DNA from: Methylorubrum populi
GTDB lineage: Bacteria > Pseudomonadota > Alphaproteobacteria > Rhizobiales > Beijerinckiaceae
DNA: 64,000 bases
Assembly (NCBI RefSeq): GCF_002355515.1
Contig: NZ_AP014809.1
Location: forward strand, 3,248,501-3,312,500
Reading direction: 5' to 3'
Below the pieces are notes generated by a model. That model did no database searches. It was given only the letters and a program-made list of their open reading frames with translations, and was not told where the DNA came from. Made by a program: the position numbers and the translations under genes. Within the stretch, counting starts at the first letter, position 1; every line of letters starts with the position of its first letter. Of the stretch, positions 4,192 through 63,391 are shown piece after piece.

Positions 4192-5420
4192 GTGTCGAGA
4201 CGCTCACCTTCGGCTGCCGGCTCAACACCGTCGAGTCGGAGGTGGTGCGCGGCCACGCCGAGGCCGGCGTCGAGGGGCGCGATCTTGTCGTCGTCAACAC
4301 CTGCGCGGTGACGGCGGAGGCCGGGCGGCAGGCCCGCAAGGCGATCCGCCGGCTCGCCCGCGAGCGGCCGGGGGCCGAGATCGTCGTGACCGGTTGCGGC
4401 GCCGAAGTCGAGCGCGCGCAGTATGCCGACATGCCAGAGGTGGCCCGCCTCGTCGGCAACGCGGCAAAGCTCAGGCCCGAGAGCTGGCGCGACGGCACCA
4501 TGCCTCCGCCGGAGGACATCATGGCGGTGCGCCGGGCCGAGCCGACCCGCATCCTCGGCATGAACGGGCATACCCGCGCCTTCGTGCCGGTGCAGAACGG
4601 CTGTGACCACCGCTGCACCTTCTGCGTCATCCCGTTCGGCCGCGGCAATTCCCGCTCGGTGCCCGTCGCCGAGGCGGTGGCGCAGGTGCGCCGCATCGTC
4701 GAGCATGGCGGCCGCGAGGTGGTGCTCACGGGGGTCGATCTCACCGCCTATGGCCGCGACCTCGACGCGAGCCTGAGCCTCGGGCGCCTCGTGCGGACGA
4801 TCCTCGCCGAGGTGCCGGATCTCGCGCGGCTGCGCCTCTCCTCCATCGATTCGGTCGAGGCCGATCCGGAGTTGATCGCCGCCTTCGCCGAGGAGCCGCG
4901 GCTGATGCCGCATGTGCATCTCTCGCTGCAGGCGGGGGACGACCTGATCCTCAAGCGGATGAAGCGCCGCCATTCGCGCGCTGACGCGATCCGCCTCTGT
5001 CGGACCCTGCGCGATCTGCGCCCCGGCCTCGTCTTCGGCGCCGACCTGATCGCTGGCTTCCCCACCGAGACGGAGGCACAGTTCGCCCGCTCCCTCGACC
5101 TCGTCGAGGAGTGCGGACTGACGCATCTGCACGTCTTCCCCTTCTCGCCGCGCCCCGGCACGCCCGCCGCGCGGATGCCGGCGGTGCCCGGCGACGAGAT
5201 CCGCGCCCGCGCCGCAAGGCTGCGCACGGCCGGGGCGGCGGCGCTGGCCCGCCATCTCGACGGCGAGGTCGGAACCCGTCGGCGGGTGCTGACCGAGCGC
5301 GGCGATACGGGACGGACCGAGGCGTTCTCGCTGGTGCGGTTCGCAGCGCCCGTGGCCGCGGGGGAGATCCGCGACGTCACCGTCGCCGGGCATGACGGGC
5401 AGGCGCTGCTCGCGGCTTGA
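4188..5420 (+). CDS. mtaB: tRNA t6A37 methylthiotransferase (MtaB family)
   Basis: A 410-residue radical SAM methylthiotransferase that adds a methylthio group to t6A37 of tRNA. The N-terminal domain carries the three cysteines of the auxiliary cluster (Cys10, Cys39, Cys70). The radical SAM motif C-x3-C-x2-C is at Cys139, Cys143 and Cys146. The GTG at 4188 overlaps the dapF stop, and this start places Cys10 where the family has it. The open frame continues upstream inside dapF, but that part is shadow. Pairing of dapF with mtaB is common in alphaproteobacteria. Confidence 0.9.
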
Positions 5421-5439
5421 AGGAAAGCTCGCCGACTCC

Positions 5440-6204
5440 TCACTCGCCTGTTGTGCCGGCCTCCTCTCCCGCGGAGGGGAGAGAGCTCTCGGGGGCAAGC
5501 GACATGCCGCAAGCCTCCAGTCCCGCCCGCATATGCGAGGGGACGGGAGCCTCGACCAGGATCGCTTCCCGCTTCGGATAGAGCGGCAGGCTCAGGCCTC
5601 GCGCATGGAGTTGCAGGCCCGGCCCGTCCCGCCCGGCGCTGCCGTAGATCGCGTCGCCGCGGATCGGCCAGCCCATCGCCGCGCAGTGGACGCGGAGTTG
5701 GTGCGTCCGCCCCGTGACCGGCTTCAGTTCGAGCCAGGACAGGCCGTCGGCCCGTCCGAGCACCCGGTAGAGCGTGAGCGAAGGGGCGCCGGCCGGATCC
5801 GTCTTCATCCACCAGCTGCGCGGATCGTCCGAGCGCTTGGCCAGCGGCAGGTCGATGCGGCCCTCCATCGCCTCGGGGCCGCCCTCCACAAGGGCCCAGT
5901 AGGTCTTGTTCACCTTGCCGTCGGCGAACAGGCGGTTCAAACGCGTGAGCGCCTTGGCGTGGCGGCCGAGCACGAGGCAGCCCGAGGTGTCGCGGTCGAG
6001 CCGGTGCGCGGCCTCGGGCCGGCGCGGCAGGCCGAAGCGGAGGGCGTCGAGATGGTCGGTCAAGGTCGGCCCCCCCTTCGGGCCCGGATGCACCGGTAAA
6101 CCTGCCGGCTTGTCGATGACGAGCATCAGGGCATCGCGGTAGAGCAGGGAAAGACCTATCTCCGGTTCGTCGGTGCGATCCGGCACTGAAACACGTGCGT
6201 TCAT
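5440..6204 (-). CDS. RluA-family pseudouridine synthase
   Basis: Isomerises uridine to pseudouridine in RNA. The catalytic motif HRLDRDTSG is present, followed by the conserved GRTHQLRVH segment. There is no N-terminal S4 domain, as in short RluA-type enzymes. The ATG at 6204 gives 254 residues; a further in-frame ATG at 6240 would add twelve unconserved residues. Which rRNA or tRNA site it modifies cannot be told from sequence. It is divergent from ftsY. Confidence 0.88.
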   Translation of the reverse strand: MNARVSVPDRTDEPEIGLSLLYRDALMLVIDKPAGLPVHPGPKGGPTLTDHLDALRFGLPRRPEAAHRLDRDTSGCLVLGRHAKALTRLNRLFADGKVNKTYWALVEGGPEAMEGRIDLPLAKRSDDPRSWWMKTDPAGAPSLTLYRVLGRADGLSWLELKPVTGRTHQLRVHCAAMGWPIRGDAIYGSAGRDGPGLQLHARGLSLPLYPKREAILVEAPVPSHMRAGLEACGMSLAPESSLPSAGEEAGTTGE

Positions 6205-6260
6205 GCCCCACGGGCTAAAGCGCCGGATCGTCGCGGGCAAGGTTTGAGCAAGGGACTGGG

Positions 6261-7748
6261 ATGAGCGACGACGAGAAGCCCGGCTGGTTCGGACGGCTGT
6301 TCGGACGAAAGGGCACGCCCGAGGCCAAGCCCGCGGAAGCCAAGCCCGCGGAAGAGGTGCCGACGGACGAGATGCCCGCCGAACAGGCGTCGGTCACGGA
6401 TCATCCTGCGCCGGAGCCGGCCACGCCGGATCCGCTGTCGCCGGCCTCCGAATCCGAGGGCCAGCCGGATTTCACGACTGCGGCCGACGACGTGTCCCAC
6501 GTGCCGCCGCCGGCCAGCGAACCCGCGCCGGAGGATCCGGACAAGAACCAGATCCCCGATGAGGTGGAGGGCGCCGACCTCCAGCCTGAGCCGCAGCCCC
6601 CTTCGGGCGAGGCGCCGCAGCCGGATGAGGCGCCGCTCGAGAGCGAGACCCTGGCCGTCCCCGCCGAGCCGGCGGAGAAGCGGAACTGGTGGTCTCGCCT
6701 GACCGGCGAGGACGCCCCGCCCGCGACGGAAGCGCAACCGCCGGCCGAGGCCGACATCCAGCCCGTCGATTCAGCCGCCGCTCTCGCGAGCGACGCGATC
6801 TCCGGCTCCGTCGAAGGCATGGAGAAGCGGGGCTGGTGGTCGCGGCTCACGGCGGGCATGCGCCGCACCTCGTCCGCCCTGTCGGACCGGGTGACGGGCC
6901 TGTTCACCAAGCGCAAGCTCGACGCCACCACCCTCGAGGATCTGGAGGACGCGCTGATCCAGGCCGATTTCGGCGTGGAGACGGCGATGCGGATGTCGGA
7001 GGCGGTCGGCAAGGGCCGCTACGAGAAGGGCATCTCGCCCGACGAGGTGCGCGCCATCCTCGCGACCGAGATCGAGCGGGCGCTGGAGCCGGTGGCGCTG
7101 CCGATCGCGATTGATTCGGCCAAGAAGCCCTACGTCATCCTGACGGTCGGCGTGAACGGCGCCGGCAAGACGACGACGATCGGCAAGCTCTCGCTCAAGT
7201 TCAAGGCGGAAGGGCGCAGCGTCATGCTGGCGGCGGGCGATACCTTCCGCGCCGCGGCGATCGAGCAGCTGCGCGTCTGGGGCGAGCGCACCAACACCCC
7301 CGTCATCAGCCGCGAACAGGGCTCGGACGCGGCGGGACTCGCCTTCGACGCCTTCAAGGAGGCGCGGGAGAACGGCACCGACGTGCTTCTGATCGATACC
7401 GCCGGCCGCCTGCAGAACAAGGCCGGGCTGATGGCAGAGCTGGAAAAGATCGTCCGCGTCATCCGCAAGCTCGACCCGGAGGCACCCCACGCCACCCTTC
7501 TGGTGCTCGACGCCACCGTTGGGCAGAATGCATTGAGCCAGGTCGAGCTGTTCTCTCAGGCCGCACCCGTGTCGGGCCTCGTGATGACGAAGCTCGACGG
7601 AACCGCGCGGGGCGGTATTCTAGTGGCACTCGCCGCGAAGTTCGGCTTGCCCGTGCATTTCATCGGCGTCGGCGAGGGCGTGGAGGATCTGGAGCCGTTC
7701 GCCGCGCGGGATTTCGCCAGGGCGATCACCGGTCTTCCCAAGGAGTAA
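6261..7748 (+). CDS. ftsY: signal recognition particle receptor FtsY
   Basis: Docks ribosome-SRP complexes at the membrane for co-translational insertion. At 495 residues, about the first 200 are an acidic, proline-rich A domain, followed by the NG GTPase domain. The P-loop [10 protein letters not shown] lies near residue 297, DTAGR near 379, and [10 protein letters not shown] closes the GTPase core. The A domain holds three tryptophan/basic motifs (residues 6-14, 140-148, 189-198), the last of which corresponds to the membrane-binding helix before the N domain. Its last codons provide the ribosome-binding site of the next gene. Confidence 0.96.
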
Positions 7749-7752
7749 CCGA

Positions 7753-8412
7753 TTGCCCGCCGTTCCCTCGGAGTCTCGTGAGAACCTCAGCATGAAGGTC
7801 GAGAGCGTTCCGCCGCGCCGGCACTTGCCGCCGCTTCTCAAGCTGGCGCTGGAGGTGGGCCCGCTCGCGGTATTCTTCCTGAGCAACGCCTATGCCGAGC
7901 GCTTCGGCGTGACGGCGGAGAGCAAGCTGTTCGTGGCGACCGGCGTGTTCGTCGTCGCCACAATGATCGCGCTCGGCGTGCATTTCGCCCTGCTGCGGCG
8001 GCTGCCGATCATGCCGCTCGTCTCGGGCGTCGTGGTCCTCGTGTTCGGCGGCCTGACGCTGGCGCTTCAGGACAAGACCTTCATCATGATGAAGCCGACT
8101 ATCGTGAACACGCTGTTCGGCCTCGTCCTGCTCGGCGGCCTCGCCTTCAACAAGTCGCTGCTCTCGGTCGTGCTCGACAGCATGTTCGCGTTGACGGATG
8201 AGGGCTGGCGCAAGCTGACCTTCCGCTGGGGCCTGTTCTTCCTCGCACTCGCCGCCCTCAACGAGATCGTCTGGCGCACGCAGACCGAGGATTTCTGGGT
8301 GAGCTTCAAGGTGTTCGGCATCATGCCGCTCACCATCGCCTTCGCCCTGGCGCAGACGCCGCTGCTGCTGCGCCACGAGCGCAAGGACGAGGCCGACGCG
8401 AAGATCGGCTGA
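7753..8412 (+). CDS. yciB: inner-membrane septation protein A (YciB/IspZ family)
   Basis: A 219-residue integral membrane protein with about five to six hydrophobic segments and the family opening [16 protein letters not shown]. Members affect cell-envelope integrity and septation, but a precise biochemical role is not established. The TTG at 7753 is preceded by AAGGAG at 7739-7744, inside the end of ftsY, which supports this start over the ATG at 7792. It is probably co-transcribed with ftsY, as in many alphaproteobacteria. Confidence 0.85.
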
Positions 8413-8418
8413 TCGGCC

Positions 8419-9279
8419 CTAGCCGATCCGCCGCGGCATCCGGAACGGCAGCATCAGGCGCACCAGCGGGTTACGAAAGCGCTTGAGCGACAGGCTCTCG
8501 TGGACCGGCCGGACCGCCTTTCCGTCCAGCGTCGAGGCAAGGAGCGAGCGGGCGTAGAACGGTGTATCCTCGAGGGTGCGGACGACCTGCGCCCGCGCAT
8601 CGTCGCTGCGGGTCGTGCGCGGCATGCGCCACAGCCCGGTCGGCGGCAGGCTCGCGGCGAGCGGCGGGCGCATCTCGCGCCGGGTGCCGTCAGCGTCGAA
8701 GCGCAGCGTCAGGTTCTGGCCGCTGCCGTCGGTGCGGCGCACGTCGTAGAGAATGGTCGAGCCGCGCTCGAGCGGCGCCCGGCACCATGTCCAGTCCGTG
8801 AAGGCATCCTCCAGGGCGCCGTCGCCGTCGTTGGTGTCGTGGTAGCCGCTGCCGCGCCACGCGATCGCGGGCGCCGTAAACTCGGCCTCGACGTCGCAAT
8901 CGGGCGCCATCGGCCACCAGCGGTGCAGGCCGTGCGCGTCGAGGGTGAAGGGCTGCGCCGTCAGCGCCTTCGGCCGCACCCGCACCGTCCCCCGCACCGC
9001 CTGCGGGATCGGCGCGCCCCGCTCGTCGAGGCGGATGGTGAGCACGCTGCCATCCCATTCGAGCGAGGACGGCCCCAGGCTGAAGCTCGTCGCCTCACGG
9101 GCGAGGGCGCGGGCGTTGCGCTCGGTCATGGCGAAGCGGTTGGCGCGCTCGCCGTACAGCACGACGTTGACGGCGCAGTGGGCGAACGGATCGCGCTTCG
9201 CGTCCCAGGCGTAGTAGGGCGAGAACACGCTGCCGATGAAGGCGATGATCGTCAGCCCCTGGCGCCCGTCCGCGCTCAC
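8419..9279 (-). CDS. crtC: carotenoid 1,2-hydratase (hydroxyneurosporene synthase)
   Basis: Adds water to the 1,2 double bond of acyclic carotenoids in the spirilloxanthin/spheroidene-type pathway. Conserved blocks include LTIIAFIGSVFSPYYAW and RFDADG. I give the GTG at 9279, which overlaps the crtD stop as GTGA, as the only canonical nearby start. However, the family's conserved N-terminal block (GGYVWWYVDA) is encoded in frame just upstream, inside the end of crtD. No ATG, GTG or TTG in this frame precedes it until 9621. The true N-terminus is therefore unresolved, and the mature coding region probably reaches about 9336. Confidence 0.85.
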   Translation of the reverse strand: MSADGRQGLTIIAFIGSVFSPYYAWDAKRDPFAHCAVNVVLYGERANRFAMTERNARALAREATSFSLGPSSLEWDGSVLTIRLDERGAPIPQAVRGTVRVRPKALTAQPFTLDAHGLHRWWPMAPDCDVEAEFTAPAIAWRGSGYHDTNDGDGALEDAFTDWTWCRAPLERGSTILYDVRRTDGSGQNLTLRFDADGTRREMRPPLAASLPPTGLWRMPRTTRSDDARAQVVRTLEDTPFYARSLLASTLDGKAVRPVHESLSLKRFRNPLVRLMLPFRMPRRIG

Positions 9280-10811
9280 CGCATCGACGTACCACCAGAC
9301 ATAGCCGCCGCGCGCGACCGCGCCGTCGAATCGAGGTCCGCGCGCAGTGCCGCCGCCGCGAGCCGGCCCGATTGCGCCGCCATCGGCACCCCCGGCCCCG
9401 GATGCACGCTCCCCCCGGCCAAATAGAGCCCCGGCACCCGCGTCCGCGCCCCCGGCCGTTTGAACGTCGCCGTCCAGCCGTGAGAGGCCCGGCCGTAGAG
9501 GGCGCCCCCCGTTCCCGGAAAAAGCCGTGCGAAGTCCTCCGGCGTCGTGGCCGTCGCCGGTCCCGTCGGGGCCAGTGTGAGGCCGCAGGCCGAGAGCTTG
9601 CGAAGGATGTTCGTCTCGCATGCGGCGATCTCCCGAGGGGCGAGTGGACGGTCCCCGCCATCGGCCGGGGCGTTGACGAGGAGGAGCAGGCGTTCGGGAT
9701 CGTTCGGCGGCGATCCGCCGTCGCCGTCCCGATCCTGGGCACAGACGTAGACGGTCGGATCCGGCGGCAGGCGCCGTCCGCGCAGGATCGCGTCGAACTC
9801 CGCCCGGTAATCGGCGGAGAAGAACACGTTGTGGTGGGCCAGGTCGAAGCCCGTCGCCTCCGCCGTCCGACAGAAGGTCACCGCCGAGAGCGAGCGCTCG
9901 CGGGGCGGAATCCGGTCTCCGGCTGAGGCCGCGTCGGCACCGAGCAAGCCCGCGCCGAGGGCTGCGACGTCCGCGTTCGCGATCACCGCGTCGGCCGCCA
10001 ACCGCTCGCCGCCGGCGAGTTCGACACCTGCGACACGGCCGCCCTCGGCGATGATCCGCGCGACATGTGCGCCGGTTCGGATCCTGGCACCCTGTCGCTC
10101 CGCCAGACCGGCCACGACGGCGGCGAGTCGGCTCAAGCCACCTTCGACGGTCCAGATCCCGGCCTGCTCGACATGGGCGACCAGCATCAGGGTCGCCGGC
10201 GCCTCGAACGGCGAGGCGCCGCAATAGGTGGCGTAGCGCCCGAAGAGCTGGCGCAGGCGCGGGTCGCGAAAATACTCCCCGAGCGCCGACCACAGAGTCG
10301 CGAAGGGTTGGATGCGCCAGAGGCTGCCGATGCCGGACAGGCCGACGCGCTGGGCGAGATCGACCGGGCTCGGCCGGTCGGCACGGATGAACGGTCCCTC
10401 GAGGGTGCGGTAGACCTCCGCCGCGCGAGCGCAGAAGCGGCGGTAGCCGTCCGCCTCGCGGGCACCCGCGAAGGCGCCGATCGCGTCGGCCGACGCGTCG
10501 ATGTCAGCGAACAGATCGAGTCGCTCGCGCTCGTTCCAGGCGTGACGGGCCAGCAAGCTGGCCGGTCGCAGGCCGATCTCCGCCTCGAGGCTCGTGCCGG
10601 CCTCGGCGAAGAGCGCGTCGAACACCCACCGCATGGTGAAGACGGTCGGGCCCGCCTCGACCGGGATGCCGCCCACCGAGACCGCCCGCATCTTACCGCC
10701 GACCGACGGCGCCCGCTCCAGCACCGTCACGTCGAGACCCGACGCGGCGAGACTGAGCGCCGCGGTGAGACCGCCGATCCCGGCGCCGATCACGATGACG
10801 CGCTTCTCCAT
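9276..10811 (-). CDS. crtD: hydroxyneurosporene/methoxyneurosporene dehydrogenase (phytoene-desaturase family)
   Basis: A FAD-dependent desaturase that introduces the 3,4 double bond after hydration and methylation of acyclic carotenoids. The 511-residue protein starts with the dinucleotide-binding motif VIGAGIGGLTAALS and ends with the family's C-terminal FAD-binding block (LYLAGGSVHPGPGVPMA). I call crtD rather than crtI because of the adjacent crtC, crtE and crtF genes and the overall match. It is transcribed away from crtE, with a PpsR-type palindrome between them. The last 20 or so codons overlap the conserved start of crtC in another frame. Confidence 0.85.
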   Translation of the reverse strand: MEKRVIVIGAGIGGLTAALSLAASGLDVTVLERAPSVGGKMRAVSVGGIPVEAGPTVFTMRWVFDALFAEAGTSLEAEIGLRPASLLARHAWNERERLDLFADIDASADAIGAFAGAREADGYRRFCARAAEVYRTLEGPFIRADRPSPVDLAQRVGLSGIGSLWRIQPFATLWSALGEYFRDPRLRQLFGRYATYCGASPFEAPATLMLVAHVEQAGIWTVEGGLSRLAAVVAGLAERQGARIRTGAHVARIIAEGGRVAGVELAGGERLAADAVIANADVAALGAGLLGADAASAGDRIPPRERSLSAVTFCRTAEATGFDLAHHNVFFSADYRAEFDAILRGRRLPPDPTVYVCAQDRDGDGGSPPNDPERLLLLVNAPADGGDRPLAPREIAACETNILRKLSACGLTLAPTGPATATTPEDFARLFPGTGGALYGRASHGWTATFKRPGARTRVPGLYLAGGSVHPGPGVPMAAQSGRLAAAALRADLDSTARSRAAAMSGGTSMR

Positions 10812-10863
10812 CGAAAGACGCTCGCTTTACCCTACCGTCGGCGTTGATCCCAACCGCGATTAG

Positions 10864-10881
10864 TGTCAATCATAATTGACA
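10864..10881. promoter_or_regulatory. PpsR/CrtJ-type operator between crtD and crtE
   Basis: TGTCAATCATAATTGACA is a near-perfect inverted repeat that fits the TGT-N12-ACA site bound by the PpsR/CrtJ repressor in purple bacteria. Its right half doubles as a perfect TTGACA (10876-10881) reading towards crtE. Its left half gives the same hexamer towards crtD. Binding here would block both divergent promoters. I did not find strong -10 boxes for either direction. Confidence 0.8.
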
Positions 10882-10919
10882 CATGAGCAAGACAACATGA
10901 ATTGACTCGGGAGGACGCG

Positions 10920-11786
10920 ATGGACGTCGGCAGGCGGATCGAGACGGTGCTCGACGTGGCGGTTTCGCACGCGGAGGCGCCGGGGGCGCCGCCGCTCCTG
11001 GCCGAGGCGATCCGCTACGCCGTGTTCCCGGGCGGGCATCGCATCCGTCCGCGCCTCTGCCTCGCCGTGGCACGGGCCTGCGGTGACGACGACCCCGCAG
11101 CCTCGGATTCGGCCGCGGCGGCGATCGAGCTGTTGCACTGCGCCTCTCTCATTCACGACGACCTGCCGTGCTTCGACGACGCGGCGATGCGCCGGCAGAA
11201 GCCCTCGGTCCACGCCGCCTTCGGTGTTCCGCTCGCCGTTCTCACGGGCGACGCGCTGATCGTCGCCGCCTTCGAGACGCTGGCTCGGGGAGCCGCCCGC
11301 TCGCCCGCTCGACTCGCCGCCCTGGTCGGGCTCGTCGCCCGCGCCGTCGGCTCGCCCTCGGGCATCGTCGCGGGACAGGCCTGGGAATCCGAGCCGCATG
11401 TCGATCTCGTCGAGTACCAGCAGGCCAAGACCGGCGCGCTGTTCGCCGCCGCCACCGTCGCGGGCGCGGCGGCGGCGGGCGCGGCACCCCTGCCGTGGCG
11501 CCTGCTCGGCGAATGCCTCGGCGAGGCTTACCAAGTCGCCGACGACCTGCGCGACGTCGCCTGCCGCCAGGAGGAGATCGGCAAGCCCGCCGGCCGCGAC
11601 GCGACCCTCGGGCGCCCGAACGCCGCCGCCCTGCTCGGAATGGGCGGCGCGCTGGAGCGGCTCAGGCGGCTGACACGGGAGGCGATCGAGGTGATCCCGG
11701 ACTGTCCGGGACAGGCCGCGATGCGTGCTGAGATCGAGGCCCAGACGCGCCTGTTCCTTCCCGCCTCGCTGCGCGAAGCGGCTTGA
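10920..11786 (+). CDS. crtE: geranylgeranyl diphosphate synthase
   Basis: A polyprenyl synthetase that makes the C20 precursor for carotenoids and the phytyl/geranylgeranyl tail of bacteriochlorophyll. The first aspartate-rich motif reads DDLPCFDD and the second DDLRD, after an FPGGHRIRPRL block. The ATG at 10920 follows GGGAGGA at a normal distance; the TTG at 10902 is an alternative but poorer start. First gene of the crtE-crtF unit, controlled from the PpsR-type palindrome just upstream. Confidence 0.92.
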   Translation: MDVGRRIETVLDVAVSHAEAPGAPPLLAEAIRYAVFPGGHRIRPRLCLAVARACGDDDPAASDSAAAAIELLHCASLIHDDLPCFDDAAMRRQKPSVHAAFGVPLAVLTGDALIVAAFETLARGAARSPARLAALVGLVARAVGSPSGIVAGQAWESEPHVDLVEYQQAKTGALFAAATVAGAAAAGAAPLPWRLLGECLGEAYQVADDLRDVACRQEEIGKPAGRDATLGRPNAAALLGMGGALERLRRLTREAIEVIPDCPGQAAMRAEIEAQTRLFLPASLREAA

Positions 11787-11808
11787 GCCCGCCGTGCCGC
11801 CCGGGGCG

Positions 11809-12948
11809 ATGACGGAAACCGGACCCGCGCCCCGTTCGCCCGGCTGGCGCGAGCGCTGGCTCGCCCTGCGCAATCGGCTGGTGGCCTCGCCCGGCTTCCA
11901 GCGGTGGGCAGCCGGGTTTCCGTTCACGCGCGGCATCGCGCGGCGCAACACGCGGGCCTTGTTCGATCTCTGCGCCGGCTTCGTCTACGCGCAGGTGCTG
12001 TTCGCCTGCGTCCGGCTCGACCTGTTCGGATCGCTGCGCGACGGCCCCCTCCCTCCGGAAGCGATCGCCCACCGGCTCGGCTTGCCCCCGGAGCGGAGCC
12101 TTACCCTGCTGAGGGCCGCGGCCTCGCTCGACCTGATCAGGCGACTGCCCGACGGGCGCTTCGCGCTCGCCGATCTCGGTGCGGCGCTGATCGGCAATCC
12201 TTCGATCGCTCTGATGATCGAACATCACGCCATGCTCTACGCTGATCTGGCCGATCCGGTCGCGCTGCTGCGGGGTACGGCGGGCCCGACCCGACTCGCC
12301 GGCTACTGGCCCTATGCCGATGCCGCGAGCACCGCATCGGTCGGCCCTGCCTCGGTGGCGGCCTATAGCGGGCTGATGGCCGCCTCGCAGGCGCTGATCG
12401 CGGAGGATGTCCTCGACGCGCTACCGCTCGCCGACCGGTCCTGCCTGATGGATGTCGGAGGCGGTGAGGGCGTCTTCCTGGCCAAAGCCGCCCAACGCCA
12501 TCCGGGTCTGGCGCTGCGCCTGCTCGATCTGCCGCCCGTTGCCGAACGGGCAGGCGCTCGACTCGCCGCCGAGGGACACGGCGACCGGGTGGTCTGCTTC
12601 GGTCGAACCTTTCTCGACGCGCCCCTCCCGCGGGGGGCCGACGCCATCACCCTGGTGCGGGTGGTTCACGATCACGACGACGCGAGGGTCATGGCGCTCC
12701 TGCGCGCGGTTCACGCAGCGCTGCCGCCCGGCGGCCTTCTCGCGATCGCGGAACCGATGGCCGGCACGGCCGGGGCCGAGCCCGTCGGCGACGCCTATTT
12801 CGGTTTCTACCTCCTTGCCATGGGCAGCGGCCGTCCCCGCACTGTGCGGGAATTGTCCGAGATGCTGGCCTGCGCCGGCTTCAGCGGCATCCGCGAGCGA
12901 TCGACCCGCCGCCCGCTTCTCGCGCGATTGATCACAGCGACACGTTGA
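11809..12948 (+). CDS. crtF: hydroxyneurosporene O-methyltransferase
   Basis: SAM-dependent methyltransferase of the spirilloxanthin/spheroidene branch. It has an N-terminal winged-helix dimerisation region and a C-terminal O-methyltransferase domain with the SAM motif LMDVGGGEGVFL. The HDHDDARV block carries the family's catalytic histidine region. The ATG at 11809 gives 379 residues; the GTG at 11794 is possible. It follows crtE by 22 bases and ends about 100 bases before bchC, next to a second PpsR-type site. Confidence 0.88.
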   Translation: MTETGPAPRSPGWRERWLALRNRLVASPGFQRWAAGFPFTRGIARRNTRALFDLCAGFVYAQVLFACVRLDLFGSLRDGPLPPEAIAHRLGLPPERSLTLLRAAASLDLIRRLPDGRFALADLGAALIGNPSIALMIEHHAMLYADLADPVALLRGTAGPTRLAGYWPYADAASTASVGPASVAAYSGLMAASQALIAEDVLDALPLADRSCLMDVGGGEGVFLAKAAQRHPGLALRLLDLPPVAERAGARLAAEGHGDRVVCFGRTFLDAPLPRGADAITLVRVVHDHDDARVMALLRAVHAALPPGGLLAIAEPMAGTAGAEPVGDAYFGFYLLAMGSGRPRTVRELSEMLACAGFSGIRERSTRRPLLARLITATR

Positions 12949-12966
12949 TCAACTCGTAAACATCAC

Positions 12967-12994
12967 TTGACGCGCTTGAGTGTCTATCTAGGAT
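12967..12994 (+). promoter_or_regulatory. probable promoter for bchC-X-Y-Z (and puf readthrough)
   Basis: TTGACG (12967-12972) and TAGGAT (12989-12994) are separated by 16 bases and lie about 60 bases upstream of the bchC start. The -10 hexamer is inside the TGT-N12-ACA palindrome at 12981-12998, the arrangement expected for a repressed photosynthesis promoter. Assignment is by consensus matching only. Confidence 0.55.
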
Positions 12995-12998
12995 GACA
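12981..12998. promoter_or_regulatory. PpsR/CrtJ-type operator upstream of bchC
   Basis: TGTCTATCTAGGATGACA keeps the TGT-N12-ACA frame of the PpsR/CrtJ site, and only the outer arms are strongly symmetric. It overlaps the predicted -10 box of the bchC promoter. Together with the site at 10864 this predicts shared oxygen/light control of carotenoid and bacteriochlorophyll genes. Confidence 0.7.
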
Positions 12999-13052
12999 CA
13001 AAGCGATGCTGCAGCCGCAGAGTCGCAACCATCGCAGGGCGGAGACAGGGAC

Positions 13053-13991
13053 ATGGAGGCATTGGCCGTCGTCCTTGAACGACCGGAGCACCTGGCGCTG
13101 AGCCGCCTCGCGCTCACACCCGCCGTCGAGGGCGATGCGGTCGTCGCCGTATCCTGGAGCGGGATCAGCACGGGAACCGAGCGTCTGCTCTGGTCCGGCC
13201 GGATGCCGCCCTTCCCCGGAATGGGCTATCCGCTCGTGCCCGGCTACGAGGCGGTCGGCACCGTGGTCGAGGCTACGGCCGGAAGCGGCCTCAAGGTTGG
13301 GCAGACCGTATTCGTCCCCGGCGCCCGCTGCTTCGGCGAGGTCAACGGCCTGTTCGGCGGCGCGGCCTCGCACCTGATCGCCCCGGCCGCCCGCCTCGTT
13401 CCGGTCGATGCCGCGCTCGGCGACCGTGCCTGCCTCATCGCCCTGGCGGCGACCGCCTATCATGCCCTTTCCGGCATCGTCCCCGGCGAGCGCAACCTGA
13501 TCGTCGGCCACGGCGTGCTCGGCCGCCTGCTCGCGCGGCTGACGCTGCTCGCGGGCGGCACGCCGGTGGTGTGGGAATGCGAGCCGCTTCGCGCGAACGG
13601 AACCTTCGGCTACGCGGTACTGTCGCCCGACGACGATCCCGCGCGCGACTACGCGACCATCACCGATGTCAGCGGCGATGCGAGCCTGCTCGATACGCTC
13701 ATCGGCCGGCTCGCCCCCGGCGGCGAGATCGTGCTCGCCGGCTTCTACGAAGCGCCCCTTACCTTCACCTTCCCTCCCGCTTTCATGCGCGAGGCCCGAA
13801 TCCGGGTCTCGGCGGAGTGGCGGCCGGGCGATCTCGCCGCCGTTCGGGCGCTGATCGAAAGCGGAAGCCTGTCGCTCGACGGACTGATCACCCACCGCGT
13901 GCCGGCGACGCAGGCGGAGGGCGCCTACCGTACCGCCTTCGCCGACCCGGCCTGCCTGAAAATGATCCTCGATTGGAGGACCTGCTCATGA
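13053..13991 (+). CDS. bchC: 3-hydroxyethyl bacteriochlorophyllide a dehydrogenase
   Basis: Oxidises the C3 hydroxyethyl group to acetyl late in bacteriochlorophyll a synthesis. It is a zinc-alcohol-dehydrogenase-like protein of 312 residues with SWSGISTGTERLLW, the GYPLVPGYEAVG block and a nucleotide-binding region near VGHGVLGRLLARL. The ATG at 13053 follows GGAGACAGG. An upstream in-frame ATG at 12993 falls inside the operator and promoter and is unlikely. It overlaps bchX by four bases (ATGA). Confidence 0.93.
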   Translation: MEALAVVLERPEHLALSRLALTPAVEGDAVVAVSWSGISTGTERLLWSGRMPPFPGMGYPLVPGYEAVGTVVEATAGSGLKVGQTVFVPGARCFGEVNGLFGGAASHLIAPAARLVPVDAALGDRACLIALAATAYHALSGIVPGERNLIVGHGVLGRLLARLTLLAGGTPVVWECEPLRANGTFGYAVLSPDDDPARDYATITDVSGDASLLDTLIGRLAPGGEIVLAGFYEAPLTFTFPPAFMREARIRVSAEWRPGDLAAVRALIESGSLSLDGLITHRVPATQAEGAYRTAFADPACLKMILDWRTCS

Positions 13992-14992
13992 ACCTTCAGC
14001 TCAACAAGGCGGCGCTCGCCGCCGCCGCGACGCTGCGGGACGAGGCCGCCATCGAGCCCGATCCGGTCGCGACCGGCGAGGTGAAACGCGAGACGCAGAT
14101 CATCGCGATCTACGGCAAGGGCGGCATCGGCAAGTCGTTCACCCTTGCCAACCTCAGCTACATGATGGCCCAGCAGGGACGTAAGGTGCTGCTGATCGGC
14201 TGCGACCCGAAGAGCGACACGACCTCGCTTCTGTTCGGCGGGCGCGCCTGCCCGACCATCATCGAGACCTCGACCCGGAAGAAGCTCGCGGGCGAGGCGG
14301 TCGCCATCGGCGATGTCTGCTTCAAGCGCGACGGCGTCTACGCGATGGAATTGGGCGGGCCGGAGGTCGGCCGCGGCTGCGGCGGGCGCGGCATCATCCA
14401 CGGCTTCGAGCTGCTGGAGAAGCTTGGCTTCCATGAATGGGGCTTCGATTACGTCCTGCTCGACTTCCTTGGCGACGTGGTCTGCGGCGGCTTCGGCCTG
14501 CCGATCGCCCGCGACATGTGCCAGAAGGTCATCGTCGTCGGCTCCAACGACCTGCAATCGCTCTACGTCGCCAACAACGTCTGCTCGGCGGTGGAGTATT
14601 TCCGCAAGCTCGGCGGCAATGTTGGCGTCGGCGGCCTCGTCATCAACAAGGATGACGGCACCGGAGAGGCTCAGGCCTTTGCGGAAGCTGCCGGCATCCC
14701 GGTCCTGGCCTCGATTCCGGCCCATGAGGACATCCGCCGCAAGAGCGCGAATTACGAAATCATCGGCAAGCCTGAGGGGCGCTGGGGTCCGCTCTTCGCC
14801 GATCTCGCGCAGAACGTGGCGGCGGCGGCGCCGCACCAGCCGAAGCCGCTGAGTCAGGACGCGCTGCTCGGTCTGTTTTCGAGCGAGGCCACCGGCCGCG
14901 ACGTGGTGCTGGAGCCCGCCACCCTCGAGGACATGTGCGGGCGGACCACGCTCGCCAAGCCGTCCCTCGAAGTCGTCTACGACGAGGTCTGA
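13988..14992 (+). CDS. bchX: chlorophyllide a reductase, iron protein subunit X
   Basis: ATP-dependent reductase component that feeds electrons to BchYZ for reduction of chlorin ring B. Its 334 residues resemble the nitrogenase iron protein: P-loop YGKGGIGKS (residues 42-50), a CDPKSDTT switch, and the two cluster-ligand cysteines in GRGCGGRG and DVVCGGFG. It has the N-terminal extension typical of BchX compared with BchL. The start overlaps the bchC stop. Confidence 0.96.
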   Translation: MNLQLNKAALAAAATLRDEAAIEPDPVATGEVKRETQIIAIYGKGGIGKSFTLANLSYMMAQQGRKVLLIGCDPKSDTTSLLFGGRACPTIIETSTRKKLAGEAVAIGDVCFKRDGVYAMELGGPEVGRGCGGRGIIHGFELLEKLGFHEWGFDYVLLDFLGDVVCGGFGLPIARDMCQKVIVVGSNDLQSLYVANNVCSAVEYFRKLGGNVGVGGLVINKDDGTGEAQAFAEAAGIPVLASIPAHEDIRRKSANYEIIGKPEGRWGPLFADLAQNVAAAAPHQPKPLSQDALLGLFSSEATGRDVVLEPATLEDMCGRTTLAKPSLEVVYDEV

Positions 14993-58953: not shown

Positions 58954-59047
58954 GGGTAATCGGGATGTCGGCATCGCCCCCATCGGAGCGCCACAGAGAA
59001 GCCGCCCGGCGCAGACTGGCGCCGGGCCCCGCTGATCGTGCGCGCTC

Positions 59048-59536
59048 CTACGGCTCCTTGAAGCCGTATTCCGGCACACCCTCGTCGTTGCCGTAATACT
59101 TGTAGGGCAGGAACTTGCCCGACATGGCGAGCTTCACCCGGTCGCCCTTGTTGTTGGGCTCGCGCTCCATCGTCATGTTGAAGTCGATCGCCGACATGAT
59201 GCCGTCGCCGAACTCCTCCTGGATCAGCTCCTTCCAAGTGGTGCCGTAGACCATCACCAGTTCGTAGAAGCGGTAGATCAGCGGGTCGGTCGGCGGCATC
59301 TGCGGGATCGAGCCGCGGTAGGGCGCCTCGTTCAGCATCCGCTCCTCCGCCTGGCTAAGGCCGAACAACTCGGCGGCCTTCTTGGCCTGAGCCTTGGGGA
59401 GCTTCATCTGGCCCATGCAGGCGGCGGTGATGAGGATCGGCGAGATCCCGCCGATCTCGTCTTGGATGTACTTCCAAGTCCACCCCTTCTCGCGCTTGAT
59501 GTCGAGGAGCTTCTCGGTGAGGTCTTCGCGCTTCAT
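59048..59536 (-). CDS. cynS: cyanate hydratase (cyanase)
   Basis: Decomposes cyanate with bicarbonate to ammonia and carbon dioxide. Its 162 residues agree with the usual length of about 156. The N-terminal helix-turn-helix-like domain is followed by the catalytic domain with LIYRFYELVMVYG (catalytic Arg and Glu) and GIMSAIDF (catalytic Ser). GGGAG lies six bases before the ATG at 59536. A sigma-54 promoter at 59700-59714 faces it, and a sigma-54 activator is encoded divergently. No cyanate transporter or carbonic anhydrase gene is adjacent. Confidence 0.95.
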   Translation of the reverse strand: MKREDLTEKLLDIKREKGWTWKYIQDEIGGISPILITAACMGQMKLPKAQAKKAAELFGLSQAEERMLNEAPYRGSIPQMPPTDPLIYRFYELVMVYGTTWKELIQEEFGDGIMSAIDFNMTMEREPNNKGDRVKLAMSGKFLPYKYYGNDEGVPEYGFKEP

Positions 59537-59699
59537 GCTCGTCTCCCTGCCGGCGATCGGCTGGCCGTGAACGGGGTGGCCGTTCGGATGTCAGGGGGCG
59601 TGACCTCCGAACGGCCTGACCATTCTGTCCGCCGAAGCGAACCGAACGGCACTCGAATGACGGGCCGCGAACCGCGCCGCGTCATTGCGAGGATGGACC

Positions 59700-59714
59700 G
59701 CAAACGGCGTGCCA
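59700..59714 (-). promoter_or_regulatory. sigma-54 (-24/-12) promoter for cynS
   Basis: On the leftward strand the sequence reads TGGCACGCCGTTTGC, an exact TGGCAC-N5-TTGC match to the RpoN consensus. Transcription would start near 59689, giving a leader of about 150 bases before cynS. This is a consensus assignment, and no start site has been measured. Confidence 0.85.
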
Positions 59715-59760
59715 GACCCTGCCTCGGATCAAACGCTCGACACGGCAGTGACTTAAGCCG

Positions 59761-59822
59761 ATTTCGTTCATCTACGAAATTTCGTATATAGCGAGATCTC
59801 GTAAGATGAATGCGAGATTTCG
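59761..59822. promoter_or_regulatory. repeat array, probable activator-binding sites of the cyanase regulator
   Basis: Three palindromes share the pattern CGARATYTCG: TACGAAATTTCGTA (59773-59786, perfect), CGAGATCTCG (59792-59801, perfect) and CGAGATTTCG (59813-59822). An extra half-site ATTTCGT is at 59761-59767. They lie about 60-110 bases upstream of the -24 element of the cynS promoter, the usual place for enhancer sites of sigma-54 activators. The last copy is inside the first codons of the divergent activator gene, which suggests autoregulation. Confidence 0.7.
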
Positions 59823-61714
59823 TCGTGCTGACCCTCTCAGGTGAAGCGTCATCGGAGTACGGCCCCGCCTTCGACGAGAATCGAGAGGCGATGCTGGTGT
59901 TCGAGCCGCTCGACGACCGCATTGCCGACGCCAACCCGGCCGCTGCCGGACTGCTCGGCCGCAGCCGTGCCGCGCTGCGGGCCATGCCGGTCAGCGCCCT
60001 GCATCCCGATCAGCGGCCCGCACTTGTGGTGTTCACGCAAGCGGTCCTCGCGGAGGGGCGTTGGTGGACGCACGCCCTGATGCCGCACCACCCCGGCGGA
60101 AAGGCGCTGCGACTGGAATATGCCGCCTGTCGGCTGGCGGGTGAGCCCGTGCGCCTCCTCGTCACCCTGTACGATCTCGACGAGCGCGAGCGCCGCCGCA
60201 TCGACCGGGAGGCCGAGGAGCATATGCGCGCCGGTCTCCCCGAGTGGCAGCGGATGGAGCGCATCTTCCGCGACATCGAGCGCGGCAACCGCCTGATCCT
60301 CGGGGCGGCGGGGGAGGGGATCTACGGCGTCAACGCCGAGGGGGCCACCACCTTCGTCAATCCCGCCGCCGAGCGGATGCTCGGCTGGCGCTCGGCCGAC
60401 CTCGTCGGCAAGGACATGCACGCGACCGTCCACCACACCCATGCGGGCGGAGCCCACTATCCCCATCGCGACTGCCCGATCTACGCCGCCTTCCGCGATG
60501 GGGCCGTGCATCAGGTCGATGACGAGGTGTTCTGGCGCAAGGACGGCACCTGCTTCCCCGTCGAGTACACTTCGACACCGATCCGGGAGGGCGGGCAATT
60601 GCTCGGCGCGGTGATCGTGTTCCGCGATGTGAGCCAGCGCCGGGAGGCGGAGGATCGGTTGCGGGCGGCGCTCGCCGAGGTGGATCGGCTGCGTGAGCGC
60701 CTCGAACAGGAGAATGCCTATCTCAAGGAGGAGATCCGCGCGGAGAGCCACCATCGGGGCATCATCGGCCGCAGTCCGGCGATCGAGGCGTTGCGGCACC
60801 AAATCGACGTGGTGGCAGGCACCGACGCCACGGTCCTCGTCACGGGCGAATCCGGGACGGGCAAGGAACTGATCGCCCGGGCCATCCACGAGGCGAGCCA
60901 ACGCCGCGACCGTCCGCTGATCCGCGTGAACTGCGCGGCGATCCCGCGCGACCTGTTCGAGAGCGAATTCTTCGGGCACGCCAGGGGGGCGTTCACGGGT
61001 GCCTTGCGCGATCGGATCGGGCGGTTCGAGCTCGCCGACGGCGGCACGCTGTTCCTCGACGAGGTCGGCGAGATCCCGCTCGATCTTCAGGGCAAGCTCC
61101 TGCGCGTGCTTCAGGAACGCCAATTCGAGCGGGTCGGCGAGGAGCGCACCCGCGCGGTCGATGTCCGGCTGATCGCCGCGACCAATCGGGACCTGAAGGA
61201 AGAGGCGCGCCGCGGGCGCTTCCGCGAGGACCTCTATTTCCGCCTCAATGTCTTCCCCATCGCTTCCGCGCCCCTGCGCGAGCGCCGCGAGGATGTGCCG
61301 CTGATCGCGCAACACGTCCTGAGGGCAGCCGCGCGGCGCCTCAACCGGGCGGATCTCCGTCTCACCGAGGCCGATGCCCGCCGCCTGACCCGCTACGACT
61401 GGCCGGGCAACGTGCGTGAGCTGGAGAATGTGATCGAGCGCGCGGCGATTCTCGCCGAACGCGGGCGCTTGCGGTTCGACCTCCCGGAGGCCCGCGGCGC
61501 CGGGCCCGACGCCCGGGTGAATGCTCCCCCCGTGGATCTGGGACGGCCCCTCACCGAGGAAGAGCGCCGGGCGCGAGCCCGCAGCGAGATCGAGGCGGCG
61601 CTCCAGATGAGCGGCGGGAGGATCTTCGGTGCGGGTGGCGCGGCCGAACTGCTCGGCCTCAAGCCTACCACCCTCCGCTCGCGGATGAAGGTGCTGGGGA
61701 TCGCACGATCCTGA
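59810..61714 (+). CDS. PAS-domain sigma-54-dependent activator, probable cyanase regulator
   Basis: A 634-residue activator with no receiver domain. A degenerate PAS-like region (residues about 15-120) is followed by a PAS domain (about 155-280) with [25 protein letters not shown] short coiled coil, the AAA+ domain (Walker A GESGTGKE near residue 346, GAFTGA near 392) and a C-terminal Fis-type helix-turn-helix ([19 protein letters not shown]) come next. It lies divergent from cynS across palindromic sites and an RpoN promoter, so I infer it senses a ligand through PAS and activates cynS. Confidence 0.88.
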
Positions 61715-61864
61715 CGGCCGGCGATCTCTCTCGAACAGGCCCGCTTCGCAGGGCTGTCATTTGCGCCTGCTTCTGTCTCGTTCGATAGGTTGCGACCGCG
61801 CCGCTCGCCTCGACCGAGCATCGCGATCCGCGCAACACCCCCGTGTCACGAGCTGAGCGATGTC

Positions 61865-63391
61865 TTGAGAGCAGAACCGACACGCCGCGCCGCGACCCGG
61901 GCACGACCTCTCGAGAGAGGTGGCCGGGTTCTCGCCCTGTCCGTCCTGCTCTGCGCTGCGTCCGGCACGGCAGAGGCTCAGTCTCCTCCGGCCCTGGCCT
62001 TTCCACTGCCGCTGGCGCTTCCGCTGACGGGTGCTGGCGGCGACCCGCAGACGGCGATCGCGCAATCCCGGACGTCGGACCAGGTTTCGGTGACGAACCA
62101 GGGCTCGATCCAGGAGGCGCTCGGACCCTACGGCGATCCGTTCGGCCTGCGCGCCTTCCTCGCGGAGCGGGGCATTACCTATGTCCTCACCTATATCGGC
62201 GAGGGATTTTCGAACGCCTCCGGCGGGCTGCGGCGCGGGACGACGTTCGGAGGCCGCCTCGACACCTCGCTCGATATCGACCTCGACCGGCTCGCCGGGT
62301 GGAGCGGTGCACGTTTCCACACCGACTTCTTCCAGATCCACGGTCACGGCATGTCGCGGCGCTATGCCGACAATCTCACGACGATCAGCGGCATCGAGGC
62401 ACTGCCAGCGACCCGTCTGTTCGAACTATGGATCGAGCAGCGCTTCCTTGGTGATCGGTTCTCCGTGAAGCTCGGGCAGATCTCGGCGGACACCGAATTC
62501 GCCATTGCGCAGTCGGCGGTGGTGTTCGTCAATGCCGGCTTCGGCTGGCCGAACATCGGTGCGGTGGTGATGCCGAGCGGCGGACCGATCTACCCGCTCG
62601 CCACCCCGGCCATCCGTCTGAAGTACGAGCCGACGCACGAGCTCTCGTTTCAGGGCGGCCTGTTCAACGGCGATCCGGCCGGGACGCCGATCCGTGGCGA
62701 CGACACCGATCCGGAGCGGCGCAACCGCACCGGCACCAATTTCCGCGTCAACGATCCGGCGCTGCTACTCGGCGAAGTCGCTTATGCCTATCACAGCCTG
62801 CCCGGCACCGAGCGTCTGCCCGGCACGGCGACCCTGGGCGGCTGGTACCATTTCGGCCGGTTCGACAGCCCGCGCCTGGACGAGGTGAGAGGACGGCGAT
62901 TGGCCGATCCGGAGGCCAGCGGCATCGCCAGGCGCTTCCGCGGCGATGCGGGCCTCTACGCCATGCTCGATCAGACGATCTATCGCGAGCCGGGACGGGA
63001 GAATGCCGGCGCTTCGGCCTTCCTGCGCGTCTCGATGGTGCCGAGCGACCGCAATCTGATCGACCTCTACGTCGATGCCGGCGTGGCCTACAGGGGGCTC
63101 CTCGCGGGCCGGCCCAACGATACGCTCGGGTTCGGCATCATCCACTCGCGCATCAGCCCGGCCGCGCGCGCCTTCGATCGTGACGCGCGCCTCTTCGGCG
63201 TCGGATCGGGTCCCCTGCGCAGCAGTGAGACCGTGATCGAAGCGACCTATCAGGCGGAGGTCGTACCCGGCTTCACCCTTCAGCCGGACCTGCAATACGT
63301 CATGCGGCCCGGCGGCGGACTCGCCGACGATCGCGGCCGACGGCTGCGCAACGCCACGGTCGTGGGCCTGCGCGCGACCATCAACTACTGA
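61865..63391 (+). CDS. carbohydrate-selective porin (OprB family)
   Basis: A 508-residue outer-membrane barrel protein. A signal peptide (VLALSVLLCAASGTAEAQ) is followed by a linker and the OprB-like domain, with GGRLDTSLDIDLDRLAGW, FHTDFFQIHGHG and LGQISADTEFA. It ends in the barrel-closing segment RNATVVGLRATINY. The TTG at 61865 is the best available start just before the signal peptide, but initiation is uncertain. A TTG at 61790 would add 25 residues. The sugar or other substrate is unknown. Confidence 0.82.
   Translation: MRAEPTRRAATRARPLERGGRVLALSVLLCAASGTAEAQSPPALAFPLPLALPLTGAGGDPQTAIAQSRTSDQVSVTNQGSIQEALGPYGDPFGLRAFLAERGITYVLTYIGEGFSNASGGLRRGTTFGGRLDTSLDIDLDRLAGWSGARFHTDFFQIHGHGMSRRYADNLTTISGIEALPATRLFELWIEQRFLGDRFSVKLGQISADTEFAIAQSAVVFVNAGFGWPNIGAVVMPSGGPIYPLATPAIRLKYEPTHELSFQGGLFNGDPAGTPIRGDDTDPERRNRTGTNFRVNDPALLLGEVAYAYHSLPGTERLPGTATLGGWYHFGRFDSPRLDEVRGRRLADPEASGIARRFRGDAGLYAMLDQTIYREPGRENAGASAFLRVSMVPSDRNLIDLYVDAGVAYRGLLAGRPNDTLGFGIIHSRISPAARAFDRDARLFGVGSGPLRSSETVIEATYQAEVVPGFTLQPDLQYVMRPGGGLADDRGRRLRNATVVGLRATINY

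Follow-up and report, generated by a model that had tools for sequence, protein, structure and literature searches.

A transporter-free cynF-cynS module in Methylorubrum populi: a predicted sigma-54 promoter and a conserved array of three palindromes

Background

In Escherichia coli, cyanase is controlled by CynR, a cyanate-responsive regulator of the LysR type which is encoded divergently from its target and is associated with a sigma-70 promoter. Divergent organization is also seen in the norVW system, where the activator NorR senses through its N-terminus and three enhancer sites are found between the regulator gene and a sigma-54 promoter. CynF, the regulator considered here, shares with CynR a position divergent to cyanase, although the two proteins belong to unrelated families, and it differs from NorR in having PAS rather than GAF as the sensor and in the sequence of the sites.

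The closest described system is that of Pseudomonas pseudoalcaligenes (oleovorans) CECT5344. According to the accessible sections of the published account, CynF is a sigma-54-dependent activator encoded divergently from cynABDS and is needed for cyanase activity and for growth on cyanate; the cyn operon is induced by cyanate and repressed by ammonium, a sigma-54 promoter is predicted before cynA, and a similar gene arrangement was noted in other proteobacteria (PMC6627978). In the tabled results of the same account, cyanase was not detected in a cynF mutant on any of the nitrogen sources given (PMC6627978).

The region analysed here, referred to as the window, is a stretch of 64,000 nucleotides from the Methylorubrum populi contig NZ_AP014809.1. 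A previous reading of this DNA from sequence only had put forward its cyanase region as an undescribed regulatory system, an idea that we rejected because CynF is already in print as a sigma-54 cyanase activator (PMC6627978, accessible sections). Like the CECT5344 system as described there, the window has a divergent sigma-54 activator, a predicted sigma-54 promoter and cyanase as the target; however, it has no cynABD genes between cynF and cynS, and its promoter would drive cynS behind a structured leader of 163 nt. We consider, with a probability of roughly 85%, that the CynF-cynS module is a transporter-less form of the CynF/cynABDS system, in which CynF at three palindromes drives the sigma-54 promoter of cynS on a signal received by its PAS domains and probably limits its own synthesis. 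The system is a known one, and what is added here is a probable enhancer code and a transporter-free variant that has arisen more than once, together with leads on a leader RNA and on a second cyn-like cluster.

Results and discussion

The locus and the identity of the activator

The features of the region are listed in Table 1. The genes cynS and cynF are divergent and separated by a gap of 273 bp, and the window's genome holds one match to cynS (E ≤1e-20) and one match to rpoN. A gene for an OprB-family porin (Pfam; 61790-63391) is found directly 3' of cynF on the same strand.

Table 1. Features of the cynS-cynF region, with positions counted from the first nucleotide of the window
Feature	Position	Strand	Basis or remark
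cynS, cyanase (cyanate hydratase)	59048..59536	-	Pfam PF02560 and PF21291; NCBIfam TIGR00673 equivalog, above cut-off
GCCCCC-loop hairpin of the leader; its end is 42 nt upstream of the cynS ATG	59579..59615 (stretch 59574-59621)	-	12-sequence alignment
Further hairpin, 5' side of the cynS leader	59656..59686	-	Inverted repeat; similar stems when the leaders of several relatives are folded
Putative sigma-54 -24/-12 promoter of cynS, TGGCACGCCGTTTGC	59700..59714	-	Exact TGGCAC-N5-TTGC; box at the matching place in 64/65 triad loci
Proximal presumed CynF site, ACGAAATTTCGT	59774..59785	.	Inverted repeat; spacing conserved
Middle presumed CynF site, GCGAGATCTCGT	59791..59802	.	17 bp from proximal site
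Distal presumed CynF site, GCGAGATTTCGT	59812..59823	.	21 bp from middle site; overlaps the cynF start at ATG 59810
cynF, PAS-PAS-AAA+-HTH sigma-54 activator	59810..61714	+	Pfam/NCBIfam, relatives, AlphaFold2 model; start may be GTG 59825
PAS-A of CynF	59861..60175	+	Model residues 13-117 (residue 1 = GTG 59825); pLDDT blocks 91-96, residues 11-120
PAS-B of CynF	60305..60634	+	Model residues 161-270; Pfam PAS_9 and PAS, 43-sequence alignment, model
AAA+ sigma-54 interaction domain, GAFTGA	60761..61489	+	PF00158 E 6.5e-73; Foldseek ZraR, FleQ, NtrX, DmpR
C-terminal helical region, presumed helix-turn-helix	61556..61693	+	Model helices between residues 578 and 623

Over residues 25-631 the window activator is 59% identical to the CynF proteins of P. 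chengduensis (locus L088) and P. sediminis (L088/L090). In P. chengduensis, cynF is found beside gltD and gltB (small and large subunits of glutamate synthase), as it is in CECT5344 by the accessible part of its description, and the locus has a palindrome triad at 23/17 bp with a weak sigma-54 box (12.2 of 15.9) at 64 bp. Because of this identity, the CECT5344-type neighbours and the triad, we filed the window gene as cynF, the orthology being predicted through the P. chengduensis and P. sediminis proteins and synteny and not through the CECT5344 sequence itself. The cyanase of the window is 44-45% identical to those of the same two species.

Pfam placed Sigma54_activat, AAA lid and PAS families in the divergent open reading frame. 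The description of the protein as PAS-AAA+-Fis with GAFTGA had been made from the sequence only, and the PAS, AAA+ and GAFTGA parts of it are borne out by Pfam and by the translation; the Fis-type region is suggested by model helices and an FhlA-type alignment, HTH_8 not being among the Pfam hits of this frame. The AlphaFold2 model (mean pLDDT 80.3) presents two PAS folds, the AAA+ domain and C-terminal helices, but its pTM of 0.40 means that the arrangement of the domains is not established by the model. In an alignment of 43 sequences, T391, G392 and A393 of the GAFTGA motif are invariant and A389 and F390 nearly so. CynF scored below the NCBIfam equivalog cut-offs for NorR (371 of 476 bits), NifA (364 of 529) and NtrC (315 of 559), and the LysR family is absent from its Pfam hits and from the 25 NCBIfam matches listed.

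Within PAS-B, residues H199, H203 and C217 (numbered from GTG 59825) are invariant in the 43 sequences. Since cyanate carbamoylates thiols, the conserved cysteine is a candidate sensor, although it is not known to be specific to CynF. A fold search for the PAS ligand gave no answer, the 50 matches listed being all to AAA+ domains, and PAS relatives of solved structure gave weak matches only and no ligand.

The promoter box and the palindrome array

An exact TGGCAC-N5-TTGC had been reported at this position facing cynS, and we found it there on the minus strand. By itself the box means little, because the exact pattern occurs 10 times in the genome and 10 times in a reversed control, and one-mismatch matches in the window number 2 where 2.83 are expected. 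As stand-alone evidence the -24/-12 box was therefore rejected, its frequency in both window and genome being at the level of chance.

The box is accompanied by three palindromes of the form RCGA-N4-TCGT located 60-109 bp upstream of it, in agreement with the 60-110 bases given before, and the centre of the proximal site is 66-67 bp from the box. The comparison of the cynS-activator gap across relatives, which had been proposed as a check, was run on contigs of one genome per species, taking the best 80 of 581 activator relatives; two loci without upstream DNA (L034 and L058) were dropped before counting, so that counts are given over 78 loci, or over 79 when the window's own locus is included. 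Within this best-80 set, the triad ACGA-N4-TCGT with spacings of 20-23 and 16-18 bp was found in 65 of the 78 related loci, and a sigma-54 box, defined by a score of at least 12 of 15.9, was found downstream of the triad in 64 of these 65, with both TGGCA and TTGC in 54 of the 64 boxes. The box and the array are thus credible because they are conserved together across related loci. Sites numbering 192 gave the consensus ACGA[A/G][A/T]T[T/C]TCGT. At least three sites (7 of 8 letters) were present at 67 of the 79 loci, again among the best 80 of 581, compared with none of 1580 dinucleotide shuffles, and the palindrome array is not due to chance. A loose pattern for a pair of sites matched the window's genome at 34 places; two overlapping pairs are found only in the cynF-cynS gap, and this pattern revealed no second triad.

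The distance between box and array, measured from the GG to the centre of the proximal site, falls into three groups among the 64 loci of the same best-80 set: 53-55 bp in two loci, 63-68 bp in 50 and 75-79 bp in 12, with none in between. Steps of about 11-12 bp would fit a constraint on the face of the helix, with the qualification that relatedness among the loci makes the counts non-independent. In a separate scan of the genus, covering the best 30 of 63 CynF matches with the window included, every one of the 30 loci had a box at 64-66 bp with a score of no less than 13.5 of 15.9; all three sites were present in 23 and two sites in the other seven.

The pattern has exceptions. The triad test failed at 13 of the 78 loci from the best 80 of 581 (eight gammaproteobacterial and five alphaproteobacterial), falling to 12 when more upstream DNA was included and L087 then passed. 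These 12 loci keep two sites in seven cases, one site in two, and none in three (L073, L084 and L085). Three failing loci have site-to-box distances outside the three groups, namely 60 bp (L065), 80 bp (L076) and 125 bp (L089). At L038 the triad is present and no box was found; the box of L138 ends in TTGA rather than TTGC, and the distance recorded for L138 in the genus scan is artefactual, as it was measured to an incorrect box. The literature searched gave no description of the triple site, and neither did the accessible sections of PMC6627978.

The wiring proposed earlier, in which the activator acts through the palindromes on a sigma-54 promoter of cynS, is strongly supported by this conservation in alpha- and gammaproteobacteria. 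We suggest that CynF probably occupies the three palindromes in an ordered array, that its PAS domains would receive a signal, most likely cyanate or its product, and that the AAA+ ring would then remodel sigma-54 RNA polymerase at the -24/-12 box to allow transcription of cynS. The array also overlaps the cynF start, and for this reason CynF probably limits its own synthesis as well.

The same overlap of the distal palindrome with the cynF start could be read differently, with the palindromes serving as operators of another regulator or only as a site of cynF autorepression, and cynS being transcribed from a sigma-70 promoter. Similar palindromes could bind other dimeric regulators, and this also counts in favour of that explanation. 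However, no sigma-70-type promoter was found for either gene in 59500-59900 by a simple consensus scan, whose consensus may not suit this organism (one has been published for the Pseudomonas cynF gene). Distances from the box in steps of about one helical turn also speak against it, as does the absence of the triad from all 23 of the cynS loci without a linked CynF that are described below. We regard this explanation as highly improbable, and activation of cynS by CynF at the array as the preferred one. If so, a candidate recognition code for CynF would consist of three ACGA-N4-TCGT sites, separated by about 21-22 and 17 bp and placed at defined distances from a -24/-12 box. Such a code could help to find the targets of CynF in many proteobacteria and to design cyanate biosensors.

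Cyanase genes without a linked CynF

CynF (E ≤1e-150) is found in 61 of 111 genomes of the genus, with 63 matches, whereas cynS (E ≤1e-20) is found in 108 of 111. We examined 600 nt upstream of each of 23 cynS loci that have no linked CynF; 22 of them are in genomes without a CynF match, and the genome of the remaining one, L164, has CynF elsewhere. The locus L158, with 30 nt of upstream sequence only, was left out, as were L126-L129, where cynS is found behind cynD and where there is also no triad. An exact TGGCAC-N5-TTGC was present upstream of cynS in eight of the 23 (L131, L133, L146, L150, L153, L154, L162 and L164), whereas the rate of the pattern in the window's genome predicts about 0.01 for this length of sequence. 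The triad was found in none of the 23, and one single palindrome-like match in six. The sequence-only description of the module as self-contained therefore holds locally, but not elsewhere, and another sigma-54 activator may serve cynS in species that have no linked CynF.

These boxes are one reason to consider that activation of cynS in the window could depend chiefly on a different sigma-54 activator, for example NtrC, with CynF playing a minor role, and the repression of the Pseudomonas system by ammonium (PMC6627978, accessible sections) points in the same direction. Against this, the upstream context is one and the same for five of the eight boxes, which leaves about four independent cases, and the 350 nt upstream of those cynS genes held only weak matches to NtrC-type sites (9 of 12 letters, with one of 10). 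Furthermore, array and box are held in register at CynF loci, and in the Pseudomonas cynF mutant cyanase was not detected on the tabled nitrogen sources (PMC6627978, accessible sections). A main role for NtrC or a similar activator at this promoter is in our view distinctly improbable, and CynF is retained as the likely activator.

Linkage to the transporter genes

The window's genome has cynS alone beside cynF, and its cynABD homologues are unlinked, near 219-223 kb of the same contig. Linkage to cynABDS is a feature of gene order in the published operon and not of the regulator protein. Among the 63 CynF matches of the genus, 25 adjoin cynS with no cynA in between and 35 have cynA next with cynS beyond; two others have cynA with no cynS found nearby, and one is a fragment. 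Either cynS or cynA is divergent within 1 kb at 62 of the 63, the remaining one being the fragment. A CynA homologue at least 78% identical is found elsewhere in 10 of the 25 genomes of the direct type, the window's genome included, and none at that level in the other 15.

A tree of 60 CynF proteins (23 direct and 37 transporter-type, after six duplicate rows were dropped) requires seven changes of label, at least five of which are forced by well-supported branches. For loci of the species-wide scan, the transporter label means that cynS is about 3 kb or more away or that a cynA frame was seen, and does not refer to annotated genes. From these changes and the conserved spacing we infer that the transporter genes came or went repeatedly while the geometry of promoter and enhancer stayed. 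A constant geometry with a variable transporter suggests that the module may also remove intracellular cyanate, besides its role in nitrogen scavenging. No description of a transporter-free CynF module was found in the literature searched or in the accessible sections of PMC6627978. One genome, G035, combines a transporter-free CynF-cynS pair with a locus of the CynF-cynABDS type, on contigs C5 and C13.

A second cyn-like cluster

The unlinked cynABD homologues belong to a second cluster (L125; C1:215000-232000, about 4421-14673 of that segment), which is on the same contig as cynF, at about 0.22 Mb compared with 3.31 Mb. Besides cynABD, it has genes for a NifA-type activator, OsmC, an acyl-CoA-dehydrogenase-like flavoprotein, a rubredoxin-NADH reductase, a persulfide-dioxygenase-like protein and TauE. 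Sigma-54-like boxes precede both the OsmC gene and cynA. Like CynF, the NifA-type activator is a sigma-54 activator near cyn genes with sigma-54-like boxes; unlike CynF, it has a GAF sensor, and the copy of the cluster in the window's genome has no cynS. No perfect ACGA-N4-TCGT site was found in L125-L129.

In L126, L127 and L128 the cluster of this second type ends with cynS. The genes for the activator, OsmC, flavoprotein, rubredoxin reductase and persulfide dioxygenase adjoin cynF in L166 and L167, with cynABDS on its other side, and because they are contiguous there with cynF and cynS-D-B-A we link the second cluster to cyanate metabolism. Of 111 genomes, 20 have a copy of the flavoprotein that is at least 80% identical. 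Growth on thiocyanate or cyanate has been attributed to Methylobacterium thiocyanatum, by a paper title in two reference lists and by a table in the accessible part of PMC4135167. The second cluster could possibly encode a cyanate- and sulfide-releasing pathway of the thiocyanate type, but we lowered this reading because the flavoprotein belongs to a broad acyl-CoA-dehydrogenase-like family. A narrow literature search gave, by title, no description of such a cluster. At about 12510-12784 of L169 a remnant of cynS is found after the cynD of this cluster, and the genome concerned (G017) has a CynF-cynS pair elsewhere.

The cynS leader

The 163 nt between the box and the ATG of cynS are long compared with the transporter-bearing relative L130, where the box is about 41 nt before cynA. 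On folding, this leader gives strong hairpins, a feature which, like the overlap of the distal palindrome with the cynF start, the sequence-only reading had not mentioned. The hairpin with the GCCCCC loop has 14 pairs, with 97.0% of cells paired over 12 sequences that were picked because they show the hairpin. Eight cells are changed on both sides, a number reached by none of 500 shuffles; pairs with two-sided change (3; 130/500 shuffles as high) and further pair types (12; 115/500) are not unusual. An RNA on the cynS-sense strand is favoured, because on that strand there are 12 G-U cells and no A-C cells. The exact pattern has one match in the window's genome, and Rfam gave for 59000-60000 two matches far below gathering (RsmW, 18.6 of 52; mir-7640, 18.9 of 90). 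We read the structured leader of cynS as real, with a function that is perhaps general.

The hairpin is absent in L100 and L101, which belong to the Methylorubrum-type clade (14 members in the CynF tree), and it is not shown by the leaders of other direct-type loci (L113 and L138-L144). A search of the 111 genus genomes with the hairpin model (E ≤0.1) gave matches in 29, the 12 strongest places being the 12 used for training. The best untrained match, in G106 (L185; E 6.5e-5), is not beside a cyn gene, and the next, in G101 (L186; E 0.0013), is found between cynD and cynS.

Taken jointly, these observations could be assembled into a wider picture, in which Methylorubrum cyanase would be under CynF and sigma-54 at a phase-locked three-site enhancer, an undescribed structured leader RNA, with its fixed GCCCCC loop some 40 nt ahead of the start codon, would tune the translation or stability of cynS, and the uptake of cyanate would have passed to the NifA-type sigma-54 activator, within a sulfur/nitrogen cluster possibly generating cyanate for cyanase, for example from thiocyanate. 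This combination we consider unlikely, and it is slightly weakened by the results for G106 and for L100 and L101.

The hairpin may be a general intercistronic one. A search of 298 genomes of the family (E ≤0.01) gave matches in 13, and hits were present in seven genomes of another genus; in the four inspected among these (L193, L195, L196 and L197) there is a hairpin whose loop is likewise GCCCCC. In L193 it is found between two genes, one of which resembles, by eye, that for a PQQ dehydrogenase and the other that for a periplasmic solute-binding protein.
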